64,000 nt of DNA from assembly GCF_016595235.1 (NCBI RefSeq), contig NZ_JAENHL010000006.1, positions 496,001 to 560,000 of the forward strand, written 5' to 3'. Positions 15,169 to 21,426 of this stretch are shown piece after piece. The notes beneath the pieces were generated by a model. The model saw nothing but the letters and a program-made list of their open reading frames with translations, had not been told where the DNA came from and ran no database searches. Within the stretch, counting starts at the first letter, position 1, and every line of letters begins with the position of its first letter. The translations under genes were made by a program, and so were the position numbers. Source of the stretch: Taklimakanibacter albus. GTDB taxonomy: Bacteria; Pseudomonadota; Alphaproteobacteria; Rhizobiales; Aestuariivirgaceae.

Positions 15169-16950
<1,782 letters not shown>

Positions 16951-17025
16951 GGAGCGAAGGATGAGTGGCGGATGGGGCCATTGCGATGAGATCGCCGCTC
17001 CGCCATTGGCCGTCCGGGGCGTCCG

Positions 17026-20000
17026 GTGAACATGCCGCGCCCCATCCTGCCGCGGGACTGGAAGCTGACGCTTCCACGCCACGGCGGGGATTGGGCGGAC
17101 AAAGCCGAATTCGATGAGCTGTCGCGCCGCTCACTCACCGAGCATCTGACGACGATCCGCTGTCGCGGCCGGCTGAGACCGGGCGAGGTCGCGGTTCTGT
17201 GCGTTCTACGCAATGAGGCGGCGCGCCTGCCGCTCTTCTTCGAGCATTACCGGAAGCTCGGGGTCGACCGCTTCTTCATGGTCGACAACAATTCCGACGA
17301 TGGCTCGCACGAGATGCTGCTGGCCGAGCCACTGGCCGATGTCTTCCACACGACCACGCCTTATTACGACAGTTGCTTCGGCATCTACTGGTATAACGGC
17401 CTAGCGCGCGAATACTGCACCGGCAATTGGGTGCTGATGGCCGATGCCGACGAGCTGCTCGTCTATGACGGCATGGAAACGCATGGCCTCGCGGTTTTGG
17501 GAGCGTGGCTCAAAAGCCAGGGCTTCGACCGGCTTTTCGGGATCATGCTGGATATATATCCATCCGGCCCGGTCGGACTGGGCAAAAGGGAGATCGCCGA
17601 TATCCTGGAAAAGGATTGCTGGTTCGACGCGGAAGGTTATTCCGCCCGCCGCCTGCCGACCGGCTGGATCGTGCATGGCGGGTCCCGCCACCGACTCTTC
17701 GAGAAGGGCGGCATGGCGGCGCCCATTTCGAAATATCCGTTCTTCGAGATGACGCCGGAGCGCTCGGTTCTCAACGCTCATTATCTGTGGCCCGTCGATA
17801 CCAGCACGAATGTGGCCTTCGGCGCCTTCCTGCATCTCAAGCTGATGGATGATTTCATCAGGAGATCCGCGGTGAATGAGGCCGAGGGGCAGCATTGGCT
17901 GGGTGCGCTGCATTACAGCACGATCAATCGGCGCCTCGCCAACGCTTCGCATATCGTTGCGGTCACCGAGCAGTCGCGGCGTTATACCGGAGCCGCCAGC
18001 CTCATGGCGAACCGGATCATTTCACCGATTGCCTGGGACGCTGAGACGCGCCTCGATCATACGCGGCCTTATCTAGTGCTCGGCGAGATCGGCTGGAAAT
18101 ACTGGCGCGCCACGCTTCCGGTGCCGGGCAAGGACTGGGTGCGGGGCGATGAGTTCATCGCCTTGTCGCAACGCTCGCTCAGTGAGCATCTGACGACGAT
18201 ACGATGCCGGGGGACGTTGCGCGACGGCGAGTGTGGCCTGATCTGCGTTCTGCGCAACGAGATCGATCGGCTGCCATTGTTCTTCGAGCATTACCGGAGT
18301 CTCGGCGTCACCCGTTTCCTCATCATCGACAACGGCTCCGACGACGGATCGCATGAATTTCTGCTCGCTCAGCCTGATGCCGATATCTTCCTGACCCAGG
18401 CGGCATTCAGGGACGGACAGGCCGGCCTTTACTGGGCCAATGCGGTGGCGCGCGCATTCTGCATCGGACACTGGATCCTCAGGGTCGATGCCGACGAACT
18501 CCTCGTCTATGACGGCATGGAAGAGCATGATCTGCCACAGCTTGCTGATTGGCTCGACCATTGCGGCCTCGACAGGATTTTCGCGCCGCTTCTCGATATT
18601 TACCCGTCCGGTGCCCTGGGCGAGCGACGCCGCAGCGTCACTGACATCCTGAAGGATGATTGCTGGTTCGACACTGAGGGTTACACGCTCAACCGGATCC
18701 GGGCCGGATGGGACCTGACCGGCGGAGCCCGCCGTCGCCTGTTCGGGAAGGACGAAGACGAAACCTGGCCGACCTTGTCGAAATACCCTTACTTTCGTAT
18801 GGCGGACGACACCGTCATCTTCAATCACCATTGGCAATGGCCCTATGACGAGGCCACGGAAGGCCCGCAGGGCGCGTTGATACACCTCAAATTGATCGAC
18901 GATCTTGCCGAGCGCACTGAGCGTTATGTCCGTGAAGGCCAGCACTTCAATCAATCCATGGACTATCAACGGATTGCGGGCATGCTGGCGGGCCGGCCTG
19001 ATCTTGTGGCCTTTCATGAAGGCTCAAGCCGTTATCGCGGCCCCCGGAGCCTGGTGCGTCAGTCCTTCATGCTGCCGATCGATTGGGATGCGCCCACCGA
19101 TCCGGCGGAGATCGAGAAACGCAAGGCCTTTCTCAGGCAGGGACGGCGGCCGCCGAACCGGACGATGTGGACCAGCACACTGCCCGAAGAAGGTGGGGTG
19201 TGGGAAAAGCGACAGCAATTCAATTGGGAGTCGCATCGCAGCCTCGCTGAGCATTTGGATATCGTCCGCTGCCGGGGCCCGCTGGCGCCGGGCGAGATCG
19301 GCCTTGTCTCCGTCGTGAGAAACGAGGCCATACGTCTTCCGCTCTTCTTCGACCATTACAAGAAGCTCGGCGTGACGAGATTCTTCATGATCGACAACAT
19401 GTCCGACGACGGATCGCATGAGATCATCGCAGCCGAGTCCCGGGCGGACATCTTCCGGGCGCACGCCTCTTATGCCGAGGGATTAGGCGGCATCTATTGG
19501 GCCAATGGGATCGCGCGTGAATTCTGTCGCGGATGCTGGACGGTCCATTCCGATGCCGACGAGTTGCTCGTCTATGATCGCATGGAGGAAAGGCATCTCG
19601 CCGACCTCGGTCGGTGGCTGGCGGCCAGGAATCACGACAGGATCCATGGCTTGATGATCGATGTCTATCCCTCGGGCGAAATCGGCCAGGACGGCCGATC
19701 CATCGCTGAAATCCTGGCGACCGATTGCTGGTTCGACGGTGATGGTTATGTCGAGACGCGTGAGAAGGGCGGGTGGCTGACGACCGGCGGCCCGCGTCAT
19801 CGGCTCTTCAACAATGGGCCCGACGTCCATGCCCATTGGCTGTCGAAGCATCCGTTCATCCGGGTTTCGGAGGAGACGAGCATCATCGATGCACATTTCC
19901 TCTGGCCGGTCCCCCCTGCCAAACCGGTGGCCCGCGGCGCGCTGCTGCATCTCAAGCTGATGGATGACTTCCAGGCGCGTAGCCGGCGCTATGAGGAGGA

Positions 20001-20160
20001 GGGGCAGCATGCGCTCGGCTCCCGCGCTTACCAGATCATCAATCAGGAACTCGCCGGTATGCCGAAGCTGGTCGCCCATTATCCGGGTTCCAGACGTTAT
20101 GCCGGCCCCGCGAGCCTCATCCGCCACGGCATGATGCAGCCCATCGATTGGGATGCCTGA
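17026..20160 (+). CDS. Triple-domain glycosyltransferase (three tandem Glyco_tranf_2_4-like units)
   Basis: 1044-residue protein built from three copies of one glycosyltransferase domain of about 330 residues: 12-339, 360-689 and 715-1044, with linkers of 20 and 25 residues. Each copy starts with W-x3-LP, has RSLxEHL and RCRG, then a nucleotide-sugar-binding block (RNE...RLPLFF-E/D-HY..LGV.RF...DN.SDDGSHE), a GT-A DxD-type motif DADELLVYD (residues 140, 488 and 843), LDIYPSG or a close variant, DCWFD, and ends with SL...PI-W-D-A. All three copies keep the DxD motif, so all could be active. It resembles the GT2/GT92-like family with RNE and LGV motifs. There is no signal peptide or membrane segment. 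It starts at GTG 17026 or ATG 17032. No other glycan genes are adjacent; donor and acceptor are unknown. Confidence 0.88.
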   Translation: MNMPRPILPRDWKLTLPRHGGDWADKAEFDELSRRSLTEHLTTIRCRGRLRPGEVAVLCVLRNEAARLPLFFEHYRKLGVDRFFMVDNNSDDGSHEMLLAEPLADVFHTTTPYYDSCFGIYWYNGLAREYCTGNWVLMADADELLVYDGMETHGLAVLGAWLKSQGFDRLFGIMLDIYPSGPVGLGKREIADILEKDCWFDAEGYSARRLPTGWIVHGGSRHRLFEKGGMAAPISKYPFFEMTPERSVLNAHYLWPVDTSTNVAFGAFLHLKLMDDFIRRSAVNEAEGQHWLGALHYSTINRRLANASHIVAVTEQSRRYTGAASLMANRIISPIAWDAETRLDHTRPYLVLGEIGWKYWRATLPVPGKDWVRGDEFIALSQRSLSEHLTTIRCRGTLRDGECGLICVLRNEIDRLPLFFEHYRSLGVTRFLIIDNGSDDGSHEFLLAQPDADIFLTQAAFRDGQAGLYWANAVARAFCIGHWILRVDADELLVYDGMEEHDLPQLADWLDHCGLDRIFAPLLDIYPSGALGERRRSVTDILKDDCWFDTEGYTLNRIRAGWDLTGGARRRLFGKDEDETWPTLSKYPYFRMADDTVIFNHHWQWPYDEATEGPQGALIHLKLIDDLAERTERYVREGQHFNQSMDYQRIAGMLAGRPDLVAFHEGSSRYRGPRSLVRQSFMLPIDWDAPTDPAEIEKRKAFLRQGRRPPNRTMWTSTLPEEGGVWEKRQQFNWESHRSLAEHLDIVRCRGPLAPGEIGLVSVVRNEAIRLPLFFDHYKKLGVTRFFMIDNMSDDGSHEIIAAESRADIFRAHASYAEGLGGIYWANGIAREFCRGCWTVHSDADELLVYDRMEERHLADLGRWLAARNHDRIHGLMIDVYPSGEIGQDGRSIAEILATDCWFDGDGYVETREKGGWLTTGGPRHRLFNNGPDVHAHWLSKHPFIRVSEETSIIDAHFLWPVPPAKPVARGALLHLKLMDDFQARSRRYEEEGQHALGSRAYQIINQELAGMPKLVAHYPGSRRYAGPASLIRHGMMQPIDWDA

Positions 20161-20217: not shown

Positions 20218-21426
20218 TCAGTCGTTGGCGGAGATGCTGACGCCCAGCTGGTCGAGTGCTGCGCCCGGATTGTTCGGGTCGAGCGTCATGATCTGCTGGA
20301 CGGTGATCGGCTGCGCCGGCTTGGCCACGATGGTGAGCGAGCGCGGATCCTTGAGATAGGCATTGACCGCCTCGACCGCCTTCTGGGTGAAAGCCGGGTT
20401 CTTGAGCTCGGCGAGGCCGAGCTGAAGCATCGCGCCGGCATTGGCGACCATGGTCGCTTCATCCATGCCCTGCATGGCGGCGAGGAGCGGCAGCACCTTC
20501 TTGGTGATCGACTTGTCCTCGAAGCGGAGCGTCACGCGGCTGACCTGAATGCCCTGGACGAGCGGCATGAGGGCGCTTGGATCCGGCTGCGCCTCGTCCT
20601 TCAGCTTTTGCAGCTGGCCGACCAAAGCGAGGGGGATCTCACCCGCGCCTGCGCCGATCTTGAGCGTGGCCATGTCCTTGCCGGCATAGGCGATGTCGAA
20701 ATCGAAGCCCATCTTGTCCGAGCCGATATCCATCGTGCCATTGCCGCCGATGTCGAAGGAAAGAGTCGAGTAGCCGAGCTGCTTGAGCGTGCCTGAGCTG
20801 TCGAGCGCCGCGACCGCGGCTTCCGGGACCGTGATATTGCTGATCTTGAAGTCGCTCTTGCCGGCGCCGGTGACCGGATCGCCGTCCCAGGTCATTTCAT
20901 AGCCGTCGGCCGTGAAATTGTGACCGCCCGCGGCAAGGGTCATCTGGCCCGAGCTCATCTTCTTGGCCACATTCATGCTGGCGCGCAGCAGGTCGGTCGG
21001 GCTCGGATTGTCGCCCAGCGCCTTGACATACCAGTATTCGGCCGAACTCTTCGGCACCGAGATGGTGAAGTTGCCTTCGCGGCTGCCCACTTCGATGGTG
21101 GTGTCATTATATTCGGCGGCCGCGACCTCGAACAGACCATTGCCCTTGTCGGTGATGCCGCTAAGCGTCACTTTGGCGACATTGAGGGACATTTTGCCCT
21201 CGTCCTCGCCAGGAGCCTGCATATTGGCGGAGAGCCCGTCGATGACGACCGAGCCGTCACTGCCGGTGGTGACCGACTTGTAGGTCGGCTTGGTCTGGAG
21301 CTGGGTTTCCCAGTTCTTCAGGATCGCGCTGACAAGCGGGGGCTCTTCGGCCGCCCAGGCAGACGTCGCACCCGCCAGGGATGTAGCGAGAATCAAAACG
21401 AGCGCCGAGCGCTTGACCAATCTCAT
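20218..21426 (-). CDS. Exported protein of unknown function
   Basis: 402-residue protein that I do not recognise. Residues 1-25 are a clear signal peptide (MRLVKR, hydrophobic core, ending AWA before AEEPP). The mature part is rich in short beta-strand patterns and repeats of the type 'vtlsgItd', 'isnItvp' and 'vsrVtLrFEDKSItkKvL', ending with a block on proline-rich PAQPITVQQIM. This beta-rich layout suggests a periplasmic or outer-membrane-associated protein, possibly lipid-binding like AsmA- or DUF945-type proteins, but that is only an impression. It has its own promoter region facing the L,D-transpeptidase gene. Confidence 0.8.
   Translation of the reverse strand: MRLVKRSALVLILATSLAGATSAWAAEEPPLVSAILKNWETQLQTKPTYKSVTTGSDGSVVIDGLSANMQAPGEDEGKMSLNVAKVTLSGITDKGNGLFEVAAAEYNDTTIEVGSREGNFTISVPKSSAEYWYVKALGDNPSPTDLLRASMNVAKKMSSGQMTLAAGGHNFTADGYEMTWDGDPVTGAGKSDFKISNITVPEAAVAALDSSGTLKQLGYSTLSFDIGGNGTMDIGSDKMGFDFDIAYAGKDMATLKIGAGAGEIPLALVGQLQKLKDEAQPDPSALMPLVQGIQVSRVTLRFEDKSITKKVLPLLAAMQGMDEATMVANAGAMLQLGLAELKNPAFTQKAVEAVNAYLKDPRSLTIVAKPAQPITVQQIMTLDPNNPGAALDQLGVSISAND

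Follow-up and report, generated by a model that had tools for sequence, protein, structure and literature searches.

Why does a bacterium keep three related glycosyltransferase units in one protein chain, how old is this arrangement, and what might the protein do? The gene lies in a 64,000-nucleotide stretch of DNA (the window) from Taklimakanibacter albus, which has a 7.17-Mb genome and belongs to a genus of five species in the genome collection. The open reading frame and the unit borders proposed by an initial annotation were reproduced exactly by an ORF check and an alignment (Table 1). The Pfam family PF13704 matched three stretches of the whole protein (E = 5e-72; 239 bits in total versus a cut-off of 27.5), and every unit taken individually exceeded the same cut-off (78 to 89 bits). 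The start codon is uncertain (i.e., GTG at 17026 or ATG at 17032). In the relatives from two genomes (G055 and G057), the in-frame N-terminal leader is longer, and its last residues are RPILPRDWKL. A similar leader appears to be present in the window at 16946-17031 but out of frame with the gene, and the actual start may therefore lie elsewhere. No membrane-spanning stretch was detected in the protein (top 19-residue hydropathy, 1.06), and with no part of it reaching the hydrophobicity of a membrane helix, it is probably a soluble protein.

Table 1. Predicted features of the three-unit glycosyltransferase gene, in window coordinates
Feature	Coordinates	Strand	Basis or remarks
Three-unit glycosyltransferase gene	17026..20160	+	1,044 aa; ORF, three PF13704 stretches, orthologues in two sister species
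Unit 1 (T1), residues 12-339, GT-A glycosyltransferase unit	17059..18042	+	alignment, unit HMM 1-330, T1 clade 100/100, dN/dS 0.11-0.14
Linker between units 1 and 2, residues 340-359	18043..18102	+	falls outside the repeat unit in the alignment
Unit 2 (T2), residues 360-689, GT-A glycosyltransferase unit	18103..19092	+	alignment, AF2 model, GALS1 match (Z 12.7), dN/dS 0.12-0.17
Linker between units 2 and 3, residues 690-714	19093..19167	+	falls outside the repeat unit in the alignment
Unit 3 (T3), residues 715-1044, GT-A glycosyltransferase unit	19168..20157	+	alignment, T3 clade 100/100 sister to D2, dN/dS 0.16-0.18
DxDE motif, unit 1, residues 140-143	17443..17454	+	invariant in 42/42 relatives outside the genus and 16/16 genus units
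DxDE motif, unit 2, residues 488-491	18487..18498	+	invariant in 42/42 relatives outside the genus and 16/16 genus units
DxDE motif, unit 3, residues 843-846	19552..19563	+	invariant in 42/42 relatives outside the genus and 16/16 genus units
Invariant histidine, unit 1, His270, HxK motif	17833..17835	+	invariant in all 26 sequences of wide alignment A3
Invariant histidine, unit 2, His620	18883..18885	+	wide alignment A3 and residue check in relatives
Invariant histidine, unit 3, His975	19948..19950	+	wide alignment A3 and residue check in relatives

The units are 52.1% (units 1 and 2), 53.7% (units 1 and 3), and 51.5% (units 2 and 3) identical over 328 to 330 alignment columns, and 138 of the 330 columns are identical across all three. 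Chance likeness is excluded by the unit-versus-unit BLASTP results (E = 8e-120 to 1e-127), and the 41-residue block in which 31, 30, and 29 pairwise identities had been counted was found at alignment column 56. Identity at third codon positions is just 45 to 50% between unit pairs, which indicates that the unit duplications are old. Orthologous units of the protein are 73 to 92% identical between species, and each has been under purifying selection, as had been proposed for all domains (dN/dS = 0.11 to 0.18 among orthologous units by NG86, with high dS in the more distant pairs). The claim that the units are about equally diverged holds for these identities, but the trees described below show an unequal history underneath. 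Seventeen positions are fixed inside each unit class yet differ in all three classes, including some beside conserved motifs (i.e., 117-118; 138, right before DxDE; and 226, after an RxRxF motif).

An AF2 model of unit 2, built from an alignment of unit 2 with 15 other units of the genus, was confident (pLDDT, 90.8; pTM, 0.91). Its top match among solved folds was GALS1 of family GT92 (Z = 12.7; rmsd of 4.3 over 221 residues; 8% identity), followed by ThuS (Z = 12.0) and then by many GT-A enzymes; the nearest solved folds are GT92 and GT2-type enzymes. Since the top matches fall within 1 Z, the likeness denotes the GT-A fold and not one family. The Pfam GT92 model scored 25.1 bits on the whole protein (cut-off, 23), with a best stretch of only 32 residues, and profile searches of the PDB by sequence did not reach GALS1; GmaR was among the nearest solved relatives by profile. 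Thus, a predicted GT-A fold, taken from the unit 2 model, is accompanied by a DxDE motif in every unit. The structure prediction suggested by the initial annotation gave a confident GT-A unit, but the full-length model (seven sequences) was of low confidence (pLDDT, 46; pTM, 0.32) and yielded no usable arrangement of the units.

The DxD motif reported for all three units is present in each as DADE. Conserved charged residues, defined by their retention in 90% or more of 42 single-unit relatives outside the genus, were present in all three units at Arg62, Glu64, Asp87, Asp92, Asp140, Asp142, Glu143, Asp176, Asp201, Arg221, Arg223, Lys236, His252, His270, Lys272, and His290 (unit 1 numbering). 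There are only two exceptions: an Asp that is kept in unit 2 alone (D451; L103 and R806 in the other two units) and a near-universal Arg that is replaced by Lys in unit 3 (K779). When the alignment is widened to take in GT92-scoring proteins, the invariant residues are Asp92, Asp140, Asp142, Glu143, and His270 alone. His252 and His270 are near-universal among the relatives and kept in every unit; GALS1 has been reported to use a histidine as a catalytic base (PMC11062476). Inactivated sites in two of the three units, which would have spoken against an old array of working domains, are contradicted by this conservation, and degenerate units are ruled out by the residue check together with dN/dS. 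With these residues intact in all three units, more than one unit may be catalytically competent.

The three-unit protein (T; units T1, T2, and T3) occurs in three of the five species of the genus, and its orthologues in the two sister species are 89% and 77% identical to the window protein. One sister genome (G057) has, in addition to T, a separate two-unit gene (D1-D2) at an unrelated locus; in another genome (G054), the slot after aspS is occupied by a pair of neighbouring two-unit genes, A1-A2 followed by D1-D2 (L165:8635-12884); and a D fragment lies on a short contig in G056. The slot filled by two two-unit genes in G054 holds one three-unit gene in sister species.

Phylogenetic trees placed all units of the genus in one clade on a long branch, within which T1, T2, T3, D1, and D2 each formed a strongly supported class (99 to 100% for T1, T2, and T3). 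Whether the unit 1s of different species cluster together had been raised as a check, and they do, as do the unit 2s and unit 3s of the three species. Species-wise clustering of the three units, as expected from recent gene conversion, is ruled out by these clades and by the AU test (p-AU = 4e-189). Since the units cluster by position, the arrangement is older than the species, and its units have escaped homogenisation. A clade consisting of the T units alone was also rejected (p-AU = 0.0016), which rules out a clean triplication confined to the three-unit protein. Instead, the trees grouped T3 with D2 (93/95), T1 with D1 (89/89), and T2 with A2 (92/98), with support that is good but below the strictest threshold, and these groupings indicate that each unit of T goes back to a separate member of a larger, older array. 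Judging from the trees, an array of no fewer than three to four units was probably present in the ancestor of the genus and served as the source of T. The "old triplication" of the initial annotation is thus old, as positional clustering in three species attests, but it is not a simple triplication.

Outside the genus, searches of the order, class, phylum, and named genomes returned single-unit PF13704 proteins with few exceptions, i.e., an 856-aa protein (L228) in which PF13704 occurs twice, and several mosaics joining PF13704 to other domains. These surveys sampled the groups: scores in the larger protein searches cover only the two top candidates of each genome, and no more than 30 loci from any one search were inspected for architecture. 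Within the samples surveyed, two- and three-unit fusions of this subfamily are confined to the genus; as far as the searches go, its fused arrays are found only there and mostly in the fixed slot after aspS. Two giant mosaic proteins (L229:5512-11556, 2,015 aa; L155:7010-11137, 1,376 aa) combine galectin-like, Galactosyl_T, and PF13704 domains, and one of them also has a GT2 domain.

In Rhodobacterales, the closest single-unit PF13704 relatives occur as two neighbouring genes at most of the loci examined (L129:5890-8121, L082:4820-6936, and the majority of the remaining Rhodobacterales loci in the range L077-L154). The upstream and downstream genes form two clades of their own, apart from the units of the genus, so the duplication there was independent, and an origin of the fused arrays by fusion of such a pair is unsupported. 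PF13704 has reached a similar multiplicity independently in Rhodobacterales, in the form of adjacent genes. Conserved neighbours of these pairs encode an inositol-monophosphatase-like protein, a cytidylyl-/nucleotidyltransferase, a GT14 Branch-DUF5927 protein, a sulfotransferase, and an ABC-type permease; going beyond the Pfam matches, we would read some of them as CysQ, KdsB, RfbA, and KpsM. The conserved paired locus looks like a sulfated-polysaccharide locus. DUF5927 lies C-terminal to the GT14 Branch domain in L129:8040-9818 and L082:6941-8647, and our literature search found no mention of this domain. No homologue of the KpsM-like permease was detectable in the genus in a search run without a positive control.

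Two plasmids carry relatives in polysaccharide loci, together with genes for ABC export and for sugar nucleotides. A plasmid source for the genus array was rejected since the plasmid relatives found are at most 33% identical and have a single unit each where looked at. A phage origin was likewise rejected (zero matches in viral contigs), and nothing found bore out an identity of the relatives with the capsule genes of the Rhodobacter capsulatus GTA receptor.

The flanking gene order (ppk-ppx-rnd-aspS-[GT]-sec402-YkuD-ceramidase-like-RNR) is identical in the window and in three sister genomes. These neighbours are unrelated housekeeping genes on mixed strands. No other glycosyltransferase, sugar-nucleotide enzyme, or polysaccharide exporter was found by Pfam among the approximately 38 larger ORFs of the window, in which the wall-related genes are peptidoglycan genes; the reported lack of a neighbouring glycan cluster is therefore borne out. 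Since the flanks are the same in the three sister genomes, any link to a pathway rests on the distant relatives. A protein of 402 aa (20218-21426), which begins like a signal peptide and matches no Pfam family, always adjoins the glycosyltransferase in the genus (75 to 96% identity). The glycosyltransferase gene diverges faster than its neighbours (88.8% identity versus 94 to 99.6% for the neighbouring enzymes in G055), and fast evolution is usual for surface-glycan genes.

Judged from their residues and codons, the three units are intact, have been separately kept by selection, and bear old position-specific identities. In our proposal, the protein would work in the cytoplasm as a soluble glycosyltransferase whose single chain contains three complete GT-A active sites, each of which would bind a metal and a sugar nucleotide via the DxDE motif and the conserved histidines. 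The three diverged sites may act one after another on a single growing acceptor, with transfers that differ at least in part, and this acceptor would most likely be a surface-polysaccharide or lipopolysaccharide precursor; we consider the chances of this reading to be about even. We infer the activity of each unit, the difference between their transfers, and the surface-glycan role, the last of which is suggested by the loci of the distant relatives and by the fast evolution of the gene and not by its neighbours. The old class-specific differences argue for non-identical transfers, and the paired Rhodobacterales genes in glycan-type loci are what one would expect of paired units that act one after the other on a single glycan. 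A stricter form of this proposal, in which three specialised units fused from the older array work as an assembly line, each adding a different sugar or linkage in a fixed order to one acceptor, is tentative.

The three units might instead perform the same transfer (i.e., same donor and linkage), their repetition serving a repeating acceptor, avidity, or dose. All three units retain the same near-universal residues, they are about equally related, and two-unit forms and a 2+2 arrangement also occur in the genus, as if number and not identity varied freely. However, only approximately half of the residues are common between units, far below the identity of orthologous units, the classes remain separate in every species and have not been homogenised, and some class-fixed differences adjoin conserved motifs; we regard identical transfers as rather unlikely. 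That only one or two units are catalytic, with the remainder acting as acceptor-binding or structural modules, is improbable: although some glycosyltransferases carry a noncatalytic module, such as CBM95 of GALS1 (PMC11062476), and selection by itself is no proof of catalysis, every unit retains the conserved charged residues, including DxDE and both histidines, the two exceptions lying elsewhere, and dN/dS is similar across units. An acceptor other than a surface polysaccharide (i.e., a protein, a small molecule, or a tRNA-related substrate) would fit the conserved position next to aspS in four genomes and the presence, among the nearest solved relatives, of GmaR (by profile) and the peptide S-glycosyltransferases ThuS and SunS (by fold). 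Given the unrelated neighbours on mixed strands, the two-unit form at an unrelated locus in one sister species, and the location of distant relatives in polysaccharide loci, we hold such an acceptor to be improbable.

Multi-active-site glycosyltransferases are already known, among them WbdA, a tandem-domain mannosyltransferase. As far as the searches go, three homologous PF13704 units in one chain are confined to one genus. K4CP chondroitin polymerase and LARGE1 also have several catalytic domains in one chain, and K4CP alternates two sugars (PMC13411425), but their two domains differ in activity, whereas the window protein has three homologous units (approximately 52% identical) of a different family. 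The single-unit PF13704 (Glyco_tranf_2_4) enzymes of Alphaproteobacteria belong to the same family (approximately 30 to 39% identity over the unit) but are mostly proteins of approximately 340 to 390 aa, while two or three units are fused in this genus. The Rhodobacterales pairs (e.g., Ruegeria pomeroyi, L129) likewise consist of old paralogous units kept together and separately conserved, but they are separate genes, duplicated independently, and their capsule-like locus also carries Branch-DUF5927 and sulfotransferase genes. The mosaics (L155, L229, and L230) join one PF13704 domain to other glycosyltransferase domains; they combine different families (GT2, Galactosyl_T, and lectin) and not repeated copies. 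GALS1, the top solved fold match but nearly level with ThuS (a galactan synthase of Populus; PDB 8d3t/8d3z), whose family model scored just above its Pfam cut-off, consists of one GT92 domain and CBM95 (PMC11062476).

Our literature search found no report matching "three glycosyltransferase domains" and no functional work on bacterial PF13704 or characterised bacterial member. PF13704 is nonetheless common in Alphaproteobacteria, and the activities of three related units in one protein would help anchor the family. Should every unit prove active and specific, the genus would offer a natural series, from single genes elsewhere to the two-unit, 2+2, and three-unit forms. Such a series would make it possible to ask what is gained by fusing homologous glycosyltransferases, be it channelling, ordered addition, or a fixed ratio.
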